NCBI GenBank assembly: GCA_002928515.1
Contig: PERI01000010.1
Location: 1 to 42,335 of the forward strand
Source of the DNA: Hyphomicrobium sp.
Lineage (GTDB): Bacteria > Pseudomonadota > Alphaproteobacteria > Rhizobiales > Hyphomicrobiaceae
Length of the DNA: 42,335 bases
Reading direction: 5' to 3'
The notes beneath the pieces are model-generated. The model had not been told where the DNA came from, did not search any database, and saw only the letters and a list, made by a program, of their open reading frames with translations. Shown piece after piece: positions 151-21,129 of this stretch. Every line of letters starts with the position of its first letter. The first letter of the stretch is position 1. The translations under genes and the position numbers were made by a program.

Positions 151-1587
151 CTAGTGATGCGCAGAACCCGTCCGTGGACGGTTTTGAAAGATCGGGTCAA
201 GAGTCAATTTCGAACTTTGCTGTTGAGGCATTATCGAATGAGACCCGTTTATAGAATTGGTAGAGCCCGTCATCAAAACGGCAGCAGTATTGCCCTCACG
301 GTCTTGATCATCGCGGCAGCTTTGTCGATGATCGTTGTTGTGCCTTGAAACTCCAAGCCTCTCTAAAATGACAGATGCGACATGCGTGGCAGCTGATGCC
401 AAAGCATGATCTACGTGATGGGCGTAGCGTGCCGTGACGCTTCCGGCACTGTGGCCGAGCAGGCCGGCTATTGTCAGTTCGCTATAGTTGAGTTCATGCG
501 CGACGGTCGCAAAGCTATGCCGTAACGTGTGTGGCGTCACATCTTTGAGAGATGCGATGCCACAAAGGCGATCCAATGGTTTGCGAATATTGACCAACTG
601 GCCTTCACCTCGCCCAGCTTCAAACACCCATGCATCCTCGTCGACCCTGTGTACAACAAGCTGGGTTAAAAATTCCATGACCGGTTGTCCGCACGGTCGC
701 ATTTGAGGACCTGTTTTGGTGTGCTTGAGCCGCAAGCATTGACCGCGCACATCAATCATAGATTTTTGCAGCGACAGAACTTCTGTCTTTCGACATCCCG
801 TCAACGCCAAGACAATGATGGCGTCGACAGCCGATTGCATTAGTCCAAAACTAGGCGCTTGCATCAGCGCGTGTCCAAGACGCTGGTATTCTTCAGGCGA
901 TAAAAATCGCGTGCGACGACCATCAGCAGGCTTTTCGATATCGCGACAAGGATTGTCGTCGACCAAGCCTGTTTTGATGGCGAAGGTATAGATCGTGGAC
1001 AACAGCTTGACGGATTTGACTGCTGTGCCTTGTCCACCTCGCACGCGGGCACGGCCGTGCGGGCCTGTTTTTTCATCGACCGCAGTTTTGCCAATGCGCA
1101 CGGCATGCATCATCATGTTGACGTCCTTGCGCGTGACCTCGGCGATCGCAAGCTGGCCAATGAGCGGCTTAATGTGACGCCTAAATCGACCTTCATCGAT
1201 CAGGACTGTCCCAAGAGCCTTAGGTTTTCCACGATAGAGGACGCGGCCAGCACGTGCCTCATCAATGTAGTGCTGGCACAGATCGGTGATGGTCATCAGG
1301 CATCGATGTTCTTTGCGTTCGGCTGAGGGATCAGCACCCTGCTCAACGTTGCCGAGTGAAATCTTGGCCAAGCGCCTAGCCTGATCAACGGTCAATCGTT
1401 TGGACGAGCCCAGTGCATAGCGCCGCGTGCTTCCCCGAGCATTGCGATATTGAACGATGAAGGTTTTCGTTCCTGATGGCTTGCATCTGACGCCAAAACC
1501 GCGCAATTCCGCGCACCAGATGAAAGCGTCGGAATTGGCTTTAGGGCACAAATCGTCGACAATTTTCTTTGTCAGTTTGCACGCCAT
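151..1587 (-). CDS. Tyrosine recombinase (integrase) of an integrated element
   Basis: Site-specific recombinase of the phage/island integrase type, which inserts and excises DNA at a tRNA attachment site. Residues 1-90 resemble the arm-binding domain of the DUF4102 type (AELRGFGVRCKPSGTKTF), residues about 100-215 form the SAM-like core-binding domain, and the catalytic domain follows. The catalytic set is complete: R266 (TGCRKTE), probably K291, H353 and R356 (HTLRHSF), H379 (LLGHS) and the nucleophile Y388 (ARYAHH). The last ~75 residues are a low-complexity tail not needed for the fold. The ATG at 1587 is preceded by GGAGAC. It is transcribed leftwards, away from the tRNA-Arg fragment at 1762-1806, so the element it belongs to probably lies mostly left of the window. 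478 aa is somewhat long for the family because of the tail. The protein appears intact. Confidence 0.93.
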   Translation of the reverse strand: MACKLTKKIVDDLCPKANSDAFIWCAELRGFGVRCKPSGTKTFIVQYRNARGSTRRYALGSSKRLTVDQARRLAKISLGNVEQGADPSAERKEHRCLMTITDLCQHYIDEARAGRVLYRGKPKALGTVLIDEGRFRRHIKPLIGQLAIAEVTRKDVNMMMHAVRIGKTAVDEKTGPHGRARVRGGQGTAVKSVKLLSTIYTFAIKTGLVDDNPCRDIEKPADGRRTRFLSPEEYQRLGHALMQAPSFGLMQSAVDAIIVLALTGCRKTEVLSLQKSMIDVRGQCLRLKHTKTGPQMRPCGQPVMEFLTQLVVHRVDEDAWVFEAGRGEGQLVNIRKPLDRLCGIASLKDVTPHTLRHSFATVAHELNYSELTIAGLLGHSAGSVTARYAHHVDHALASAATHVASVILERLGVSRHNNDHRQSCRDDQDREGNTAAVLMTGSTNSINGSHSIMPQQQSSKLTLDPIFQNRPRTGSAHH

Positions 1588-2063
1588 CGAAGTCTCCAGG
1601 GCAGAGGTCGGCGGGGAAGCAGGGGGGAAGCAAAGTGCAGTGAAAATGCGCGTAACAGGGGTAGTATGATGTCGGCAACAACCGAGATCAAGACCTTAAA
1701 ATATATGAAGAAAAGCGATATTGAGTGACCGCGCGCAGGCCTGTCGGAATGAGCAAAATTTCTCCGAAGGCAGAGGTCGTAGGTTCGAATCCTACCGGGT
1801 GCGCCATTTCACTGTCGATGATGAGATCACCGATGGTCTAACAGCATTGTGCTGGCTGTGTCCCCATAGTTTTGGACGAGTTGCCAAGCAATGGAAGGTC
1901 CTTCAAATCAAGCAATCTCGAGGCAAAGTAGAAAACGCATGAATGCTGGCTTCACGAGAACCTCGAAGCGAGAACCATCACATTGATCCCGAAAATCAGA
2001 TCGGAAGGGTCTTTCCCAACGAACATAGATACAGCCAAAACTGCGATTTAGTTGTTCCTTCAC
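1588..2063. other. Gene-poor junction around the att site
   Basis: Non-coding stretch between the integrase start and the stop of the cupin gene. Apart from the tRNA-Arg half-copy I see no gene here. The AT-richer part at about 1695-1760 would be the place for integrase arm sites, but I could not define repeats there. The part from 1807 to 2063 has no convincing reading frame, terminator or insertion-sequence end. Confidence 0.5.
1762..1806 (+). repeat. 3' half of tRNA-Arg(CCG): attachment-site scar
   Basis: The sequence reproduces a tRNA from its anticodon loop to the CCA end: CTCCGAA (anticodon CCG), the 3' anticodon strand GGCAG, variable loop AGGTC, the T arm GTAGGTTCGAATCCTAC, the 3' acceptor strand CGGGTGC, discriminator G and encoded CCA. 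No matching 5' acceptor strand (GCACCCG) or D arm occurs in the preceding 90 bases, so this is not a complete tRNA gene. With an integrase gene 175 bp away it is best read as one att end of an integrated element. Given its orientation, the intact tRNA-Arg gene should lie to the left, outside the window. The tRNA identity is from memory of the usual alphaproteobacterial sequence. Confidence 0.85.
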
Positions 2064-2549
2064 CTATTTGCGCGGATCATCTTCCGGATTTATGTACGTT
2101 ATGTTCCACGGGCCCGTTGCTGTGAGGAGTACAATCGTTTCCTCCTCATTCCATAAATAGTGGGCATGGCCGGAAGGCAATGTGAAGCTCGATCCAGCAC
2201 CGAGTTTGTCACCTTTAGTTCGGTCGAGTTTCTCACCCATTCCATTCCATACCGCCCCCTTAAGAACTGTGACGACTTCAGCGAAGGGATGCGTATGAGC
2301 AGGGATTTCGTAGTTTGGCGGAAATTTCAGGTAAACCATGAACACACCCGGCTTAGTGGGATCGCCTATGACAAGCGCGCTTTTAGCGTCTCCTGGAAGG
2401 ACGGGCTCATCTTTCCATTCCAGTTTGTCCAACTCGAAATTTTCCATCTTCGACGTCGTCATGCGCTCGATTTGATCTTGTTGTGCAAGCGCATGAAATG
2501 ATGCCGCTGTCAGAACCATACCTGCTAGCAGTGCAACCAAAACTCTCAT
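2064..2549 (-). CDS. Secreted cupin-domain protein
   Basis: Single-domain cupin of 161 residues with an N-terminal signal peptide (residues 1-22, cut after FHALA). Cupin motif 1 is visible as PAHTHPFAEVVTVLKG, which supplies two histidines and a glutamate for a metal, and motif 2 as LPSGHAHYLW. The frame is open further upstream, but the ATG at 2549 is preferred because the signal peptide begins there and an AGGAAA ribosome-binding site precedes it. Function is unknown; the family includes small metal-binding oxygenase-like and sensor proteins. It lies 195 bp downstream of the response regulator gene on the same strand and could be read through from that operon. Substrate cannot be inferred. 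Confidence 0.8.
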   Translation of the reverse strand: MRVLVALLAGMVLTAASFHALAQQDQIERMTTSKMENFELDKLEWKDEPVLPGDAKSALVIGDPTKPGVFMVYLKFPPNYEIPAHTHPFAEVVTVLKGAVWNGMGEKLDRTKGDKLGAGSSFTLPSGHAHYLWNEEETIVLLTATGPWNITYINPEDDPRK

Positions 2550-2744
2550 GTTGATTTCCTGGTGTTTGGGTGAAACGCCTGCACGATATGCAGAGCGAGC
2601 CACAAACGAATTGAAGATGCTGCAATCAACAACAGTCAGATTGGCTGTGCCACGGCGATTTGCCCTTTGAAGATTGGGAAAATCCCACATTGGTCGGCAT
2701 GTGCAGCGATACAGGAAATATGTAAGCAACCCGCCAACTATACC

Positions 2745-3401
2745 TTATGCGGTATCTGGTTCAGACAGGGATGCAACCAAACCTTGGCGCATACAAAGAT
2801 ACACGAGTTCGATATCGGATTTGACCTCGAGTTTGGATTTGATCTCGCTGTGATAGTTGGCAACCGTTTTGGGGCTAAGATTAAATGCGCTTGCAATTTG
2901 ATCCGTGGATTTCGCATTTAAAATCATACGTAAGATTTCGAATTCACGTGGTGACAGCTGGTCCAGAGCTGAAACTTGTTCGCATAAGCTGCTTGCCGCA
3001 ATGGCCTGATTGATCTCGGCGCATAAGGCAGGTCGTCCAAGATAGACATCCCTTATTGCGCTGACGAGAATCTCAGGTGGGCTGCTTTTCGTAACATAAC
3101 CACGCGCACCTGCCCGAAAAGCCTGTTGTGCGTAGGTTGCACTTGCGTGCATGGAGAAAATCAGAATTTTTGCAGTTGAATCGAGTTGGCGAAGCTGTCT
3201 CACCAGATCGATTCCGCCGCGTCCCGGCATGGACACATCAATGACGATAACGTCGGGCTTAGCGGACTTAAAAGCTTGATACCCAGATGCCGCACTATCC
3301 GCCTCGGCAACGACTTCGATGCCAGCATGTTTCTCGATGAGCCTGCGATAGCCTTCCCGAACAACGGCATGGTCGTCAATAAGGAGGACTCTTATCGCCA
3401 C
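2745..3401 (-). CDS. NarL/FixJ-family response regulator (MoxX-like)
   Basis: Two-component response regulator of 218 residues. The receiver domain (1-120) has the acidic pair D9-D10, the phospho-acceptor D55 in VIVIDVSMPG and a late lysine (TKSSP). The C-terminal LuxR-type helix-turn-helix spans about 150-210 (LSPREFEILRMI, then NLSPKTVANYHSEIKSKL). It is expected to bind DNA as a dimer after phosphorylation by the kinase encoded immediately upstream; only 3 bp separate the kinase stop from this ATG, so they form one operon. The partner's domain type suggests the MoxYX group known from methylotrophs, but no methanol dehydrogenase genes lie in the window, so the target genes are unknown. Confidence 0.9.
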   Translation of the reverse strand: MAIRVLLIDDHAVVREGYRRLIEKHAGIEVVAEADSAASGYQAFKSAKPDVIVIDVSMPGRGGIDLVRQLRQLDSTAKILIFSMHASATYAQQAFRAGARGYVTKSSPPEILVSAIRDVYLGRPALCAEINQAIAASSLCEQVSALDQLSPREFEILRMILNAKSTDQIASAFNLSPKTVANYHSEIKSKLEVKSDIELVYLCMRQGLVASLSEPDTA

Positions 3402-3404
3402 TTG

Positions 3405-4775
3405 TCAGGCTCCCTGTGGTGATGATGGAAACTCGACATGAAGGCCGAAACCACCCACGGGAAGCGGGCCAGCAGTAAGTGTTCCGCATAATGCCGTGAC
3501 ACGCTCGCGCATCCCGATCAGGCCTGAGCCAGACATTCGATCCAAGTTTACGTCCTCATGCTGTCCAACACCGTCGTCAATGACGCTGAGCCGAACGTGC
3601 TTACGAACGCTATCGGAATGTTCGGACATTCGAACCTTGACGGTTCGAGCACGGGCATGTTTTGCCGCATTCGTCAGTGCCTCCTGCACAATACGATACA
3701 CATGTGCGCTTGTTTCAGAACGCAGACTTTCAAACTCATCGGCCGCCTCAATCGAAAAAATTGTCCGTCCACGCGCATTCTCATTATGGTGCTCAACGAG
3801 TGCTCTGAGGCTGGCAACAAGACCCAGATCATCAATCTCCTGAGGACGGAGATAGCGAAGCGTCCTCCGCAAGGCGAACATTAGATTTGATGCCATTTTC
3901 TCAAGCTCGCGCGCTTCGCCGACGAGTTGGGGTGCATCAGCCTGCGCACTATTTCGGATACAGGCGGCCATTGCGCCAATTGCGGCTAACCTTTGTGCAA
4001 TTTCGTCATGGAGTTCGCGCGCCAGATGCCGACGCTCCTGCTCTTGCATATCGACTAGACGGTGCGCGAAATCGGCCCGTTCTTTTGTCGCTTTCTCAAG
4101 GTCTTCCGTCATAGCATTGAAGACTTGGCTGATGCGGTTCAATTCGGCGAGTTGAAACGGTGGCAATCGCACTTTGAGATCACCTTCGGCCAATCTGTTA
4201 AGCCCAGTTAGAATGTTGGACGCTGGTCGTAAACTTCGATCAACAATGATGTAAGTGACAAGACACAGTGCACCAACGAGGAGTGCTGAAAGTCCAAGCA
4301 ACGGTGAAATATTTGTCCAAGCCTTACTCGAAGTTGCGTACGGATCGAATGACGTTGATATGGCGCCTTGGACTTCACCACGATAGGTGAGTAATCTGGA
4401 GCCAGACAGATGTCTGTTCAAAAAGCGACCATAGAATTCCGAAAACCAAGCTGGAGGTGTGATGAAATTGGCCTCCAACCCAGAACAACTCGAACGATTC
4501 CTAGCAGGGTCTAATCCATCGAATTGGACACATTGGCCCGGCTTCAGCGCATAGTTTGAAATCAAATCCCAATCAGGAAAACGCTTCAGGGTGTCGGTGC
4601 CCCTCTCGATACGTGAAAGCTGGAGCTCGAGTTGACGGCCGGCAAGCTCGGCCAACACCTGATTTTGCAGGTGCGCTTCACGTGCGGACATATAAAGTGC
4701 GAGACCAGAGCCCGCGAAAAAGCAAGCGAAAGCCACGAGTGTTATCCGGCGAACGAGCAGCCATTTTAAATCCAT
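3405..4775 (-). CDS. Membrane histidine kinase, MoxY/NarX type
   Basis: Sensor kinase for the adjacent regulator. From the ATG at 4775 (456 aa) it has a first membrane helix near residues 9-28 and a periplasmic region of about 130 residues resembling the LapD/MoxY N-terminal domain. A second helix lies near 157-178, followed by HAMP (~175-227), a HisKA_3 dimerisation helix with H256 in LARELHDE, and an ATPase domain with N box (EALTNAAKHA), DDGVG and GSGLIGMRERV motifs. An in-frame ATG at 4880 would add 35 residues; neither start has a strong ribosome-binding site, and the later one is preferred because the membrane helix follows it directly. The signal sensed is unknown. The MoxY link is from domain recall, not a search. 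Confidence 0.85.
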   Translation of the reverse strand: MDLKWLLVRRITLVAFACFFAGSGLALYMSAREAHLQNQVLAELAGRQLELQLSRIERGTDTLKRFPDWDLISNYALKPGQCVQFDGLDPARNRSSCSGLEANFITPPAWFSEFYGRFLNRHLSGSRLLTYRGEVQGAISTSFDPYATSSKAWTNISPLLGLSALLVGALCLVTYIIVDRSLRPASNILTGLNRLAEGDLKVRLPPFQLAELNRISQVFNAMTEDLEKATKERADFAHRLVDMQEQERRHLARELHDEIAQRLAAIGAMAACIRNSAQADAPQLVGEARELEKMASNLMFALRRTLRYLRPQEIDDLGLVASLRALVEHHNENARGRTIFSIEAADEFESLRSETSAHVYRIVQEALTNAAKHARARTVKVRMSEHSDSVRKHVRLSVIDDGVGQHEDVNLDRMSGSGLIGMRERVTALCGTLTAGPLPVGGFGLHVEFPSSPQGA

Positions 4776-9425: not shown

Positions 9426-10235
9426 TCAGCTCTGCGGACCCATCTGGAACGTGCGCGTCCATGCTCCGCCATCGGTATCTTTAAACGTCACCGTCATCTC
9501 GTGATGTCCACCACGAGGATAATCGAATTCGATCATCGGATCTTGCGAGAGGGCGATAGAACCTTCGACAGCTAGAATTAAATCATCACCTGATTGCACG
9601 CGAATGTCCGAGACCATGTTCATCAATGTATAAAGCAGCGTCTGCTGATCCATCACCATCCCGGTGTGGTTTGGATGCCGGAGATTAAGCTTCGCGCGTG
9701 CTAGTACAGGCGTGGCGCCCCCAGTTGCAGCAACTGGCGCGAGCGTCATCTGCCCCATACTTGCAGCAATCTCGATCGGATCTCCCGTTGGCGGCGCCGC
9801 ACAAGACGACTGGCCACCAGCAAACTTTATCAGTTGTGAAACCATGTAGAGTTGTCCGTCACTCGCCTCCACGACGACGCGAACGTCCGACTGGCGATCG
9901 ACGCGAAAATGCGATGTGATCTTGGCTGTATCGCGCGCTTTGCCCATGTGAAAGACGGCAACAACTGGTGTTGGATTTTCGTCGATCAGTACGGTGATTG
10001 TCTTGATAGTCCGACGGTCACCCAGCGCAACATCGACACCGATAGGAACCACCCGCATATCCTCGGGTCGGCCTGGCGCTGATAGCTTAATCAGCTCGCG
10101 ACCATCAACAATCGCCTTGTTACCAAACACGCTCGCGCGAATGTCGTCCCATGCGGTTCCTGCGAAGGCTGGACTGGAAACCAGAATACATCCGAGTGCA
10201 ATGCCAACTGACAATGCCGTTCTAGAAAGACGCAT
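9426..10235 (-). CDS. SoxYZ-like carrier protein (quinoprotein-dehydrogenase-associated type)
   Basis: Exported protein of 269 residues: signal peptide 1-25, a SoxY-like domain (~28-148) ending in KFAGGQSSCAAPP with C145 in the place of the carrier cysteine of SoxY, then a SoxZ-like domain (~165-269) ending FQMGPQS. Such fused SoxYZ proteins occur next to PQQ-dependent alcohol dehydrogenases in methylotrophs and relatives; true SoxYZ carries sulfur intermediates on the SoxY cysteine in the periplasm. Here no dehydrogenase or other sox gene lies nearby, so it is an orphan. The ATG at 10235 is chosen over 10271 because the signal peptide begins there and AGGGG lies 9 bases upstream. Confidence 0.82.
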   Translation of the reverse strand: MRLSRTALSVGIALGCILVSSPAFAGTAWDDIRASVFGNKAIVDGRELIKLSAPGRPEDMRVVPIGVDVALGDRRTIKTITVLIDENPTPVVAVFHMGKARDTAKITSHFRVDRQSDVRVVVEASDGQLYMVSQLIKFAGGQSSCAAPPTGDPIEIAASMGQMTLAPVAATGGATPVLARAKLNLRHPNHTGMVMDQQTLLYTLMNMVSDIRVQSGDDLILAVEGSIALSQDPMIEFDYPRGGHHEMTVTFKDTDGGAWTRTFQMGPQS

Positions 10236-10344
10236 GGTCTGTGGCCCCTGAAAACTGAACGCAGAATGCATTGAGATGCGCGGGTAAAATTCCCTGATTG
10301 CTTATCCATTCGCCCAGCCAGTGCGTCAAGCACCAGCATGCGTA

Positions 10345-16896: not shown

Positions 16897-19278
16897 TTAT
16901 TTTACGCCGGTCGCGACGGTGACAGACGGAAGATAACCGGTGTCCAGCGACATCACATAGAACGCCATCCCAATACAAAGTAACGGGACAACCACGATAT
17001 GCGCCAGCTTCAGCACCCTTGCCAAGCCCGGATAGGTTTGAACGCGTTCATTCACGCGCACGATCGATATCGCGATCATTAAGCTCACGGCCATGTAGTC
17101 GAATAAAAATATGCGGTCAGAAATCGTCGCGGCTTCAGCACTCACTTTGGGGATCGACAAATACAGTGCGACCGCTGAAAGCAGTGCCGTCACCTGAATG
17201 GTCACAATCGCCTCAAAGTGCTCGCGCGGGATAAATATCGACAAGTACGCAACAATCAAAATGAAAATCAGAGGAATGACGACACGCAGATAATAATCTG
17301 TCGCCTCGCGTTTCATCACCCAAGAGAAATTCATTTTATAAAATGGAACGACACTTTTTTCAGCGTTTCTTGCATCCGTCAAAGGAATGTAGTCTTCGTC
17401 GAACCCGACATACTGATCGATCATGACCCAACCATCGCTTTGGCTATCGCGATCTCGCAATACTTCTCGCGGCGGCTGAATGATGAAAGCGTTTTCCCCA
17501 TTTTTGGGTTGCAACTGAACCGAGAACAATTGCGTGTCGAAAGGATAATTCGACAAATTCGGGCTCATCATGAATTTGCCGACAACCTTCGAAATCTGCA
17601 CGCCCTCTGGATACACGCTGCTTGGCCCGCCATTGTGCAGTGAATTGACCAAAAGTTTCGCGCCGCCATCCTCGGCATCCAGAAACGCATTGCCAAACTC
17701 GATATTGTCCATCCCCACAGCACCGCCGGTACGCATTGACATATAGAATTCTGCGAAGAAACTTTTCTCGTTATCATCGACGCGGAAAATGCGATTGAGA
17801 TCGATATCCATGTAGATGGTTTGGATGGCATGCAGCGAGTCGTTGCGCAGCCGAACGTATTGCGTCGGCGCAAGCTGTGCAAACTCGGTCCCGCGCGGGT
17901 GAATGAGGATGGCCGGAGTACGTGCAGCACTTCGGCTGTCAGCTTTAAATGACCAATTATCGAACTCGCCGCGATACGTACCGCGCCCCGCGATATAAGC
18001 AGTCTGAAGTTTTTCAGTTATATGAGCGCGAAAAGTCGACAAATTTTCAATATCGGGTGCCGAACGCGCGATCTCGCCAATCAGGCCGATCATATCGGCA
18101 AACTGTGTACCCCGGCCAATAGCCCGAAGATTGGCACTCGAAAATACCGCCTGCGGTGCAGTTTCCGTTTTTAGCTTACAAACACCGGAAGACCAACCAG
18201 AAGCACCAGCAACGGGTGTATCCTCGAATATCCAAATATCTTCGCTCGCCTTGGCAATACGCTCACGCAGCCGGTTATTATAGACGTCTGGCAACGTATC
18301 CCATGCCAACTGATAAATATCGTTTCCGTAGACTTTGGCTTCGGGAGTTTTGAGAATTGCATCCGAACCAAAGACAAATAGCACCGGCACAGTCACGCCA
18401 GCAGCCGTTGCAAGCTTTAAGAACTCCGTCGATGGCGCAGCACCCAGCGCAACAATGGCGATGTCAGCCTCGCGCGCTTTGATGTCATCAACGAGTGCCT
18501 TCATCAAGGTCGCATCAAACTCATTGTCTTTCACAGCGAGGCGATGCGTTGCAACCAGGGTCGGCATACCGAATTGTTTTCCTAATCCAGCGACCAAAGC
18601 ATCGATACCCGGATTGTCCGCGATCCCAACAAACGCTGGCTTCTGATATTTTCCATCAACGATAAATCGCCCCATGACGGGCAAGCGCTCTTCTTCTTGC
18701 GATGGCCGCATCGTGAAGACGTTGGGGTACGCAGCAAAGGTATCGCTGGTACCAATATCGCTGATGAACGGAATTTTGCTGTTAGCGATCTCTGATCCTA
18801 AAGCCTCGAAGACAGCTGGCGCACGCTTGCTACCCGAAAGCCCAACCATCGCGATGGTTGTTGGATCGGCGAGAGCCTTGCGAACATTTTCGATGGCCAG
18901 CTTCGGATCGTCGCGGTCGTTATAAAACTCAACGCGAAGTTTGCGGATCACGAGTTCAGGATAGCGATTGACCTCGGCTACGCGCAGTTTGACGAAATGC
19001 TCGATCGCCTTCTTGACACCTGGATCGTAACAACCATCAGCAGGCGATGTCATGTGCACAGCAATCGTGTGGCGCGGACCAGCAGCCTCGGCTTCGTCAG
19101 CACGCACAGCCGAAGTTAAGTGGGACAAAAATGCCAGCGCAAATACAAGCAAAGAAACAGGATTGCGCGACAACCTCAAAGCCAAATTTCGCAATCGCGA
19201 AAAATCGCATTCTACGATGTTTGAAGTCACGTAATCCCCCGAACTTAAGCTATTCTTGATGCGCAAAGCAGCGGTCAT
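16897..19278 (-). CDS. Periplasmic-binding-protein / pentameric ligand-gated ion channel fusion receptor
   Basis: Chimeric receptor of 793 residues, counted from the ATG at 19278. After a signal sequence (~33-59), residues ~68-442 form a type 1 periplasmic-binding fold like LIVBP (YNDRDDPKLAIENVRKALAD, MVGLSGSKRAPAVFEAL). Residues ~467-662 are the beta-sandwich ligand domain of a pentameric channel, with the Pro-loop NYPFDTQ (577-583) and no Cys-loop cysteines. Four membrane helices follow: M1 ~664-684, M2 ~689-710, M3 ~723-741, M4 ~756-777. M2 aligns without gaps to GLIC numbering: E689 at -2', T693 at 2', T697 at 6', L700 at 9', A704 at 13', predicting a cation-conducting pore with a leucine gate. 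TTG 19302 and GTG 19230 are alternative starts. Ligand unknown. Confidence 0.88.
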   Translation of the reverse strand: MTAALRIKNSLSSGDYVTSNIVECDFSRLRNLALRLSRNPVSLLVFALAFLSHLTSAVRADEAEAAGPRHTIAVHMTSPADGCYDPGVKKAIEHFVKLRVAEVNRYPELVIRKLRVEFYNDRDDPKLAIENVRKALADPTTIAMVGLSGSKRAPAVFEALGSEIANSKIPFISDIGTSDTFAAYPNVFTMRPSQEEERLPVMGRFIVDGKYQKPAFVGIADNPGIDALVAGLGKQFGMPTLVATHRLAVKDNEFDATLMKALVDDIKAREADIAIVALGAAPSTEFLKLATAAGVTVPVLFVFGSDAILKTPEAKVYGNDIYQLAWDTLPDVYNNRLRERIAKASEDIWIFEDTPVAGASGWSSGVCKLKTETAPQAVFSSANLRAIGRGTQFADMIGLIGEIARSAPDIENLSTFRAHITEKLQTAYIAGRGTYRGEFDNWSFKADSRSAARTPAILIHPRGTEFAQLAPTQYVRLRNDSLHAIQTIYMDIDLNRIFRVDDNEKSFFAEFYMSMRTGGAVGMDNIEFGNAFLDAEDGGAKLLVNSLHNGGPSSVYPEGVQISKVVGKFMMSPNLSNYPFDTQLFSVQLQPKNGENAFIIQPPREVLRDRDSQSDGWVMIDQYVGFDEDYIPLTDARNAEKSVVPFYKMNFSWVMKREATDYYLRVVIPLIFILIVAYLSIFIPREHFEAIVTIQVTALLSAVALYLSIPKVSAEAATISDRIFLFDYMAVSLMIAISIVRVNERVQTYPGLARVLKLAHIVVVPLLCIGMAFYVMSLDTGYLPSVTVATGVK

Positions 19279-19383
19279 CAGCGTCCTACGAAACCTGAGC
19301 AACCTTATCAGATAGCTTTACGGCAATGGAGCGTCACGGAAAGCACAGAGAGAATGAATGTCGCTGTTCTTGTAAATCACTAC

Positions 19384-20967
19384 CTACTCCCGCGTCAGAC
19401 CCTTTGCGCCCAATTCTTCCAGGTATGCCCCCCAGCGCTGGTCTTTTTCTCGACCAAGAAGGTGCAGGTAGCCCCACGTAAACAACCCCGTGTTGTGACC
19501 ATCATCGAAGCCGATGCGCGTGGCATAATTCCCGACGGGTTTGAGGTCTTTGATTTTGACATGCTTCTTGCGCCCAACCGTGACACGCTGCTCCGGCGAA
19601 TGACCTTGTACCTCAGCCGACGGGCTCATGACACGCAGCATCTCTGCTGAAAATTCAAATGTGCGCCCGTCTGGAAATGCGGCCTTGAGCGTACTCCCAC
19701 CATCAATCACATCTAGTATCGGCGGGGGTGTTAGCGTACCTTTGGCGCGCTCAACCTCGGTCCAGACTTCTGCTGCCAGCTCACGGAATATGCCGGCATG
19801 AACACTGTCGGGTGCCGTGACCGTGACGGGCTTGCCGCTGTCTGACGTTTCACGAATATCCATATGCAGAGGTATTTCACCCAGGAATGGCACGCCGAGA
19901 TTTCGCGCTTCGTCAGCCGCACCGCCATGCCCGAAAATATCTGAGCGCGTTCCACAACTCGGGCACAAGAAATAACTCATGTTCTCGACGATACCTAAGA
20001 TGGGAACCTCAACGCGCTTGAACATCGCAATGCCTTTGCGCGCGTCAATCAATGCGAGATCTTGCGGAGTCGAGACGATCACAGCGCCCGACAACGGCAC
20101 ATTCTGCGAAATCGTCAGTTGAATGTCGCCGGTGCCAGGCGGCATATCGACGACCAGCACATCGAGATCGCCGGTACTGCCCGCCCAATCGGTCTCACGC
20201 AACATCTGGCCGAGCGCAGACACGACCATCGGCCCGCGCCAGACGACAGGCGTTGCCTCATCGACAAGAAACCCCATCGACATGACTTTGAGGCCCCAGC
20301 CTTCCATCGGCTTGATGACTTTGCCATGCGCGACTTGCGGCTTGCCGGTGATGCCCAGCAGTCGTGGCTGCGACGGGCCATAGATGTCGGCATCAATAAT
20401 CCCGACCTTCAAACCGATCGCTTGCAGGCCGAGCGCGAGATTGACCGCTGTCGTCGATTTCCCAACGCCACCCTTGCCCGAAGCGACAGCGATGACGTGT
20501 TTGACACCTGGGATGCCAGCCATCTGACGCTCACCCGATGCCGCAGCACTTGCGGCCTGTCGCGGACCGGCCCCATCGCCTGTGGCGCCTTTTGCGCGTG
20601 CGGCTTGCACGCGGGCGTGTTCAACGACGGGCGACGGTGCAGCGGCAGGCTGGGCTGGTGCAGCAACGCTGGCCGTGGGCCGTATCGGCGGTGGCGCGGG
20701 CGCACGCTGCATCCCACCACTCATGTCTGCCGTGAGGACCACACTGGCACCGGCAACGCCTGGCAAATCCGAAACGACTTTTTCAGCCGCTTTACGTAGC
20801 TGCTCTAACTCCTCTGCCCGGCTTGCAGGAATAGTAATCGAAAAATAGACACGGTCGTTCTTAATCAGAATTTCCGACAACAAGCCAAGATCGACAATAT
20901 TACTCTCAAGATCGGGGCCCTTTACCCGGCGCAATGCAGCCAGCACCTGGGTCTTTTCAACGCTCAT
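19384..20967 (-). CDS. Mrp/NBP35-type Fe-S carrier ATPase with C-terminal DUF971
   Basis: Cytoplasmic protein of 527 residues that should bind and transfer Fe-S clusters to apoproteins. The N-terminal MIP18/DUF59 domain (1-~75) is followed by an Ala/Pro-rich linker (~85-145) and the ParA-like ATPase (~150-405), with the deviant P-loop SGKGGVGKST (~162-171), VDMPPGTGD and the cluster-binding pair CPSC (335-338). A DUF971 domain fills ~426-514 (AAFPDGRTFEFSAEMLR, NYATRIGFDDGHNTGLFTWGYL). Usual bacterial Mrp proteins stop after the ATPase at ~360-390 aa; this domain order matches plastid HCF101. The ATG at 20967 has AGGGAGAA upstream. A Moco cluster, whose MoaA is an Fe-S enzyme, starts 160 bp away in the opposite direction. 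Confidence 0.92.
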   Translation of the reverse strand: MSVEKTQVLAALRRVKGPDLESNIVDLGLLSEILIKNDRVYFSITIPASRAEELEQLRKAAEKVVSDLPGVAGASVVLTADMSGGMQRAPAPPPIRPTASVAAPAQPAAAPSPVVEHARVQAARAKGATGDGAGPRQAASAAASGERQMAGIPGVKHVIAVASGKGGVGKSTTAVNLALGLQAIGLKVGIIDADIYGPSQPRLLGITGKPQVAHGKVIKPMEGWGLKVMSMGFLVDEATPVVWRGPMVVSALGQMLRETDWAGSTGDLDVLVVDMPPGTGDIQLTISQNVPLSGAVIVSTPQDLALIDARKGIAMFKRVEVPILGIVENMSYFLCPSCGTRSDIFGHGGAADEARNLGVPFLGEIPLHMDIRETSDSGKPVTVTAPDSVHAGIFRELAAEVWTEVERAKGTLTPPPILDVIDGGSTLKAAFPDGRTFEFSAEMLRVMSPSAEVQGHSPEQRVTVGRKKHVKIKDLKPVGNYATRIGFDDGHNTGLFTWGYLHLLGREKDQRWGAYLEELGAKGLTRE

Positions 20968-21129
20968 GTCCAAATTCTCCCTGAAAAACATCCAGCAGGC
21001 AGCAGCAGAAATCGCGCGCACCGCTTAAAATCGAGAGCCAAGTCGCTCAGCACTTGGGATATACTTGGACTTAGGCAAAGTTGAAAGCCAGCTCCGCAGC
21101 GTCAATGTCGTTGAGAAAAAATCAGAAGC

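Follow-up and report, generated by a model that had tools for sequence, protein, structure and literature searches.

Ionotropic glutamate receptors are tetramers in which a different type of pore, not that of the pentameric ligand-gated ion channels (pLGICs), is inserted in a type II periplasmic binding protein (PBP-II) clamshell. They combine clamshells and a cation channel in one chain, according to the relevant passages of Tasneem et al. (2004; PMC549065), which report fusions of a PBP-I domain to a pLGIC in M. magnetotacticum and B. japonicum, liken the fusion to NMDA receptors and propose a chemoreceptor role. The PBP-I/pLGIC pairing has thus been in print, as a prediction from sequence, since 2004, and an earlier note on the DNA described here mentioned fusions seen in sequence surveys. 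The same note knew of no functional study of such a fusion, and among the literature matches listed from open-licence PubMed Central we likewise found none; a word search of Jaiteh et al. (2016; PMC4795631) returned no PBP or periplasmic wording. The bacterial pLGIC DeCLIC (PDB 6v4a, 7q3g) carries a large N-terminal periplasmic domain (NTD) and is described, in the relevant parts of two papers, as the only pLGIC with an NTD of solved structure as of 2022 (PMC9897478) and, in 2025, as the only one whose NTD is partly characterised (PMC12664993).

We analysed a gene of this kind in Hyphomicrobium sp., lying in a 42,335-nucleotide stretch of contig PERI01000010.1 (the whole of which we call the window). 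In domain order (PBP-I, pLGIC extracellular domain [ECD], four-helix pore) its product is like the PBP-I ART-LGICs of Tasneem et al. (2004), as compared with the description in the passages concerned only. It resembles DeCLIC in its large N-terminal periplasmic domain, but the lobes of the DeCLIC NTD are calcium-binding jelly-rolls (PMC12664993, in the part concerned), whereas those of the window protein are of the PBP type. With GLIC and ELIC it has in common the Pro-loop, M1-M4 and a gap-free M2, and with GLIC also E at -2' and T at 2'; GLIC and ELIC have no clamshell domain, and the 11' His of GLIC is Ala in the window protein. The clamshell-plus-channel organisation that had been compared with glutamate receptors holds as architecture, although the pore of those receptors is not homologous to the one found here. 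The protein is thus a natural chimera of a clamshell and an acetylcholine-receptor-type pore, two receptor parts familiar from neuroscience.

The gene occupies a single uninterrupted minus-strand frame (an 806-aa open frame with no internal stops) with its stop codon at 16897-16899. TTG 19302 is the first possible start; ATG 19278, the choice of the earlier note, and GTG 19230 are also plausible, with purine-rich stretches upstream of both and AGGA immediately upstream of ATG 19278. The signal-peptide-like stretch is retained whichever of the three starts is used, and hydrophobic N-terminal stretches comparable to it precede the aligned homologues (29 rows, judged by eye). The window's genome (2.92 Mb, 99.99% complete) contains one copy of the gene. 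We found no frameshift between the two halves, an eventuality that had been raised before: the frame is intact, and PBP and channel likewise lie in one frame in 29 of 29 fetched homologues, 27 of which are complete to the end while two (L003 and L008) are cut by contig ends. Conservation of the one-frame fusion across homologues excludes chance, and the same fusion occurs in other genomes, with L014 and L018 coming from single-contig assemblies. A chance or misassembled union of two separate genes, one for a PBP and one for a channel, can therefore be regarded as refuted.

Table 1. Features of the fusion gene and its product (window positions)
Feature	Position	Strand	Details
PBP-pLGIC fusion gene	16897..19302	-	801 codons counted from TTG 19302
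Signal-peptide hydrophobic core and cleavage region (predicted)	19099..19161	-	residues 48-68; hydropathy
PBP-I clamshell (LivJ-like, Peripla_BP_6)	17983..19080	-	residues about 75-440; Pfam 7.5e-14
Cys91	19030..19032	-	invariant, 30/30
Cys375	18178..18180	-	invariant, 30/30
pLGIC extracellular domain	17302..17862	-	residues about 481-667; hhalign
Pro-loop NYPFDTQ	17530..17550	-	residues 585-591
M1	17221..17304	-	residues 667-694, border with M2 approximate; phmmer alignment, hydropathy
M2 pore helix	17149..17220	-	residues about 695-718; E-2', T2', T6', L9', A13'
M3	17053..17115	-	residues 730-750; hydropathy
M4	16936..17031	-	residues 758-789; hydropathy

The LIVBP-like periplasmic domain postulated in the earlier note was borne out. 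Pfam Peripla_BP_6 matched the window protein over residues 87-354 (52.6 bits against a cut-off of 31.7), covering profile positions 10-271 of 343 and leaving the end of the profile unmatched, and it matched all 30 aligned family members. A search of the PDB with the family profile gave as best matches 4q6w (4.3e-9) and 4mpt (6.8e-9), both titled type 1 binding proteins of Bordetella pertussis, followed by other LIV-type binding proteins; the ligand in the title of 4q6w begins "3-Hydroxy Be...". These matches hint at amino acids or aromatic acids as ligands and fix none. Comparison with LivJ/LivK gave an hhalign probability of 94% over 190 columns. LivJ contact residues have been proposed from docking (PMC6983066, in the part concerned), and the alignment to LivJ has gaps and is ambiguous near Ser79 and Thr102, so that the contact residues are not placeable with confidence. 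Cys91 and Cys375 are the sole cysteines conserved in the family, both within the PBP half, and a disulphide between them in the clamshell is possible. Hydropathy also flagged residues 293-313, which lie inside the PBP half.

For the channel half, phmmer against the PDB found a GLIC/ELIC chimera (4yeu; E 3.8e-5, residues 562-780) and GLIC chains from 3.8e-4, and it aligned M2 to that of GLIC without a gap. The five M2 letters named in the earlier note were each present in 30 of 30 family members, as were Q at 4', Y at 15' and Ala at 11', and the pore letters from -2' to 16' are nearly invariant. The Pro-loop and the motif at the M1 start (YYLRVVIPL) were also found as claimed. In the Pro-loop, P587, D589 and Q591 are conserved in 30/30 rows and F588 in 29/30, Ile replacing Phe (PID) in row L019; alignment A5 (40 rows) shows no variation in the Pro, Asp and Gln columns. 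Hydropathy placed four transmembrane (TM) helices after the ECD.

Comparison of profiles was the stronger test of the family of this half. The ECD and TM region together matched a set of five standalone bacterial pLGICs that score above the Pfam cut-off (hhalign 98.0%, E 1.5e-13, 235 columns) and ten other bacterial pLGICs (98.2%, E 3.3e-14, 216 columns), as against 0.1-0.3% for six control pairs, three of which included the channel half; the window-clade ECD alone gave 94.3 and 95.1% against two sets of standalone pLGICs. Even at E up to 1, neither Neur_chan_LBD nor Neur_chan_memb of Pfam matched the window protein, nor did either match any of the 30 family members at 0.01, and NCBIfam LIC (TIGR00860) scored 3.3e-6 with 26.1 bits, far under its cut-off of 280.2 bits. 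The HMM searches that had been proposed thus put Peripla_BP_6 over its cut-off but left the two channel families without a match, and it was the profile-profile comparison, at 98%, that connected the channel half to pLGICs. The family profile also matched DeCLIC and a 609-aa chain (9ftg) of the PDB in its channel part; 9ftg may be another pLGIC with an NTD.

Cys-loop receptors of metazoa, in the strict sense, have two cysteines closing the loop. No cysteine outside the PBP half is conserved in the 30 rows, and the Cys-loop cysteines are absent. The earlier description of the channel as "Cys-loop-type" therefore stands as to pLGIC homology but not as to the disulphide, in place of which there is a Pro-loop; judged by its sequence, the window protein is a Pro-loop receptor outside the strict Cys-loop class. 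AlphaFold models were poor (pLDDT 36.6 and 42.4, from a two-sequence alignment). In fold searches with them, GLIC chains headed the matches of the channel half (E 3.2e-4, the sole match below 0.001) and PBP-I clamshells those of the PBP half (E 7.5e-8). The TM-scores in the top rows were only 0.2-0.4, and the searches lend weak support to the family assignment of both halves.

The fetched homologues were the best matches of a search among 150 relatives and share 44-62% overall identity with the window protein; the family leaves out L001, which is on the same contig as L003, and L002, which is the window itself. Some match was present in 66 of the 150 relatives, a count that includes standalone channels and fragments. 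Within the genus, the gene was found in 19 of 21 other genomes, the weakest match being 8.0e-198, and the two genomes without a match are 84% and 71% complete. By these sequence matches, the PBP-pLGIC fusion proves to be a conserved gene of Hyphomicrobium. Its near-universal presence in the sampled genomes of one methylotroph genus means that ligand and physiology could be studied by knock-out in a bacterium that is not a pathogen.

A search with the channel half through an order-wide draw of 297 genomes matched 29, and for 18 of these (the window's genome included) the matching frame measures 760-884 aa, except for one of 572 aa. The window clade is present in the window's family and in a few other families of the order, beneath Pfam detection: Neur_chan_LBD matched 5 of the 150 relatives, the window's genome not among them. 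The full-length profile matched 98 of 385 genomes in a class draw and 120 of 398 in a phylum draw, tallies that consist mostly of ordinary PBPs and are not to be taken as fusion counts. No relatives of the fusion were present in the viral contigs or the plasmids searched.

Conservation differs along the chain. Mean pairwise identity across 28 full-length rows was 47% for the PBP half, 60% for the ECD, 89% for M2 and 35% for residues 753-790. The conservation of M2 suggests strong constraint on the pore. From the end of the signal peptide to M4, only the M3-M4 stretch is less conserved than the PBP half; the low conservation of that half fits a changing ligand but also relaxed constraint. Distances in the PBP and channel halves were correlated across the 27 fused rows of the window's clade (Spearman 0.917; none of 2000 permutations was as high); the halves thus diverge together and are inherited as a unit. 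In a paralogous PBP-pLGIC branch (L090-L097), position -2' is occupied by N, D or E and position 2' by A or G, and the permeation of this branch may be different.

In other proteobacteria, relatives of the ECD were also found on a second kind of pore. We scanned 20 long-frame loci with five profiles (18 from the phylum draw, one from the class draw and one from the order draw), and six of them (L187, L175, L176, L189, L190 and L193) contained an ECD related to the channel half. L187 comprises a PBP, an ECD and a pore part in which Neur_chan_memb scored 0.002, under its cut-off, whereas L175, L176, L190 and L193 carry MS_channel_2nd, the MscS beta domain (Pfam). A profile built from five ECDs (set A6) matched 39 of 396 phylum-draw genomes, strong and weak matches together; a separate tally of 35 of 90 genomes merely repeats genomes of that draw. 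Of 30 loci from the ECD-profile draw, 20 formed an MscS set with one row per genome (A7, L195-L214), eight joined L187 in a pLGIC set (A8), and two were omitted: L216, which has runs of N and two frames, and L221, of 357 aa. Four of the five A6 seeds (L190, L175, L176 and L189) recur in A7 as rows L195, L208, L197 and L196.

Set A8 (L187, L215, L217-L220, L222-L224) consists of PBP-pLGIC proteins of 711-797 aa from other classes of the phylum, with the Pro-loop present. Peripla_BP_6 matched nine of nine and Neur_chan_memb six of nine at 0.01 or better (best 0.0001). Searched against the PDB, a single profile of the nine rows matched both PBPs (4.7e-39) and GABA-A-chimera, glycine-receptor and GLIC-type chains (from 2.6e-18). 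A distant PBP-pLGIC set from the window's own order (L088, L089 and L161, clade II) has PBP halves nested among standalone PBPs. A one-clade test gave p 0.018, or 0.168 once two long-branch rows were omitted, with a group picked after seeing the tree; a separate second fusion event for these three is suggestive only.

The MscS relatives (L195, L198, L200, L208 and others) share with the window protein a Peripla_BP_6 clamshell and a homologous ECD, and differ from it in their MscS pore, their unrelated TM parts and the lack of the Pro-loop motif. Peripla_BP_6 matched 19 and MS_channel_2nd (PF00924) 16 of the 20 A7 rows. The four rows without the latter would be L205, L211 and L213, which reach the end of their sequence stretch, and L196, which stops ahead of the MscS part. 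Complete PBP-ECD-MscS proteins measure 935-1060 aa, and some genomes have further copies. The A7 ECDs matched those of A8 (hhalign 99.8%), clade II (99.9%), the window clade (95.0%) and ten standalone pLGICs (97.4%), but reached just 29.9% against the five Pfam-recognised ones; five control pairs gave 0.0-0.3%. With the five-seed ECD set, the value against the window clade was 71.8%, and across both ECD sets the Pfam-recognised standalone pLGICs remained at 21-30%. The TM parts of A7 scored 0.3 and 0.9% against the pLGIC sets, while two pLGIC TM sets scored 97.1% against each other (L213 was omitted from the ECD comparison, and L211, L213 and L196 from that of the TM parts). By these profile comparisons, the A7 ECDs are related to pLGIC ECDs and the TM parts unrelated. 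Against the PDB, the MscS-ECD profile found no pLGIC and one unrelated match at E 0.89, and the link of these ECDs to pLGICs therefore rests on the bacterial intermediates.

Within a gap-free stretch, all 17 pLGIC-pore rows sampled (5 of 31 fused, 3 of 15 standalone and all nine of A8) have PFDxQ; none of the 20 MscS-set rows does, and these have [YF]G or YS at the site. In pLGICs the Pro-loop couples the ECD to the pore. We consider it rather likely that the PBP clamshell and the pLGIC ECD form a portable ligand-sensing cassette used on two unrelated pores, with the Pro-loop having decayed after the pore was exchanged; on the pLGIC-pore side it would comprise the window family and two other sets. 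Several points count against the cassette: the ECD profile by itself reached no pLGIC in the PDB, the MscS domain does not show in four of the 20 MscS-set rows, and the symmetry of the two pores, five-fold in pLGICs and seven-fold in MscS, is a mismatch that needs explaining. If the cassette is real, there would be MscS-type channels that are ligand-gated by a clamshell, the fit of an ECD from a five-fold ring to a seven-fold pore would become a question, and nature would have supplied an experiment on the ECD residues that serve coupling alone. The MscS-coupled relatives would then offer a direct way to tell the ECD elements that convey ligand information from those that only drive a pLGIC pore. 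Among the matches listed from open-licence PubMed Central we found no report of a PBP or a Cys-loop ECD on MscS, and this MscS-coupled form is the part that we did not find described. Two other architectures were noted at these loci. At about 1427-4423 (-) of L193, the PBP and ECD-MscS parts lie in two adjacent same-strand frames and were read as two pieces, and L191 (809-3748) encodes a 980-aa protein with Peripla_BP_6, PAS, GGDEF and EAL, a clamshell with cyclic-di-GMP output.

Read from its sequence, the window protein comprises an exported PBP-I clamshell, a pLGIC ECD and a four-helix pore in one chain conserved as a unit. The best explanation, which we hold to be moderately probable, is that it forms a homopentameric inner-membrane Pro-loop cation channel whose clamshell binds a small solute that gates or modulates it. 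Five chains would assemble as in GLIC, and their five clamshells would sit in the periplasm on top of the extracellular ring. Binding of a small solute would close them, amino acids, amides and aromatic acids being first guesses because of the LivJ-like family membership. The ECD would take up the movement and relay it to M2 by way of the Pro-loop, in which D589 is invariant, together with R665, likewise invariant, ahead of M1. The putatively cation-selective pore (E697 at -2') would then open and give a brief depolarisation or cation entry. Recurrence of the PBP-ECD pair on two unrelated pores supports the pair as sensing cassette and the pore as output. A small-molecule-gated cation flux, for which the earlier note claimed strong grounds, has fair rather than strong ones, the mapping of the LivJ pocket being unreliable.

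Alternatively, the clamshell might merely concentrate the solute or modulate the channel, with the agonist (or protons or calcium) binding to the pLGIC ECD as in GLIC, ELIC and DeCLIC. Tasneem et al. (2004; PMC549065), in the passages concerned, suggest that the PBP concentrates or senses first and that the ligand then binds the ligand-binding domain, and the DeCLIC NTD, the one studied, seems to affect gating and binds calcium (PMC12664993, in the part concerned); the better conservation of the ECD than of the PBP half points the same way. We nevertheless regard this account as unlikely: the two halves co-diverge, none of the 29 fetched homologues lacks the PBP, the standalone channels sit in another branch, and the PBP-ECD pair is found on MscS pores as well. 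Proton gating of the GLIC type in particular is improbable, since the 11' His is Ala in all 30 rows. Still less probable is a non-conducting receptor or constitutive leak in which the pore no longer gates and signalling takes another route. The literature matches listed yielded no electrophysiology and Pfam does not recognise the channel half, but the pore-lining positions are near-invariant across homologues that are 44-62% identical to the window protein.

The gene neighbourhood named no ligand: among 41 neighbourhoods there was no conserved neighbour that did so. The families of the window's own neighbours (Mrp/ApbC-like, and an MFS transporter downstream) occurred in fewer than three of the 41. 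An RND pump was present within the 11-18 kb read in 17 of the 41 (the window, read over 22.5 kb, is among the 41 and not among the 17). We rejected a link to efflux pumps: 13 of the 17 represent one inherited genus neighbourhood with pumps 76-98% identical, the remaining four fall into two further types, and every one of 40 genomes has at least 8-17 RND matches, so that the pumps are no evidence of function. Also on the minus strand, the gene that precedes the channel gene by 81 bp (19384-21021, -) encodes an Mrp/ApbC-type P-loop protein (Pfam ParA/NUBPL) with a C-terminal GBBH-like_N domain. Elsewhere in the window, SoxY and SoxZ domains are fused in a single frame (9426-10271, -), and a phage-type integrase with Arm-DNA-bind_3 lies near the contig start (151-1587, -), where a mobile element may border the window.
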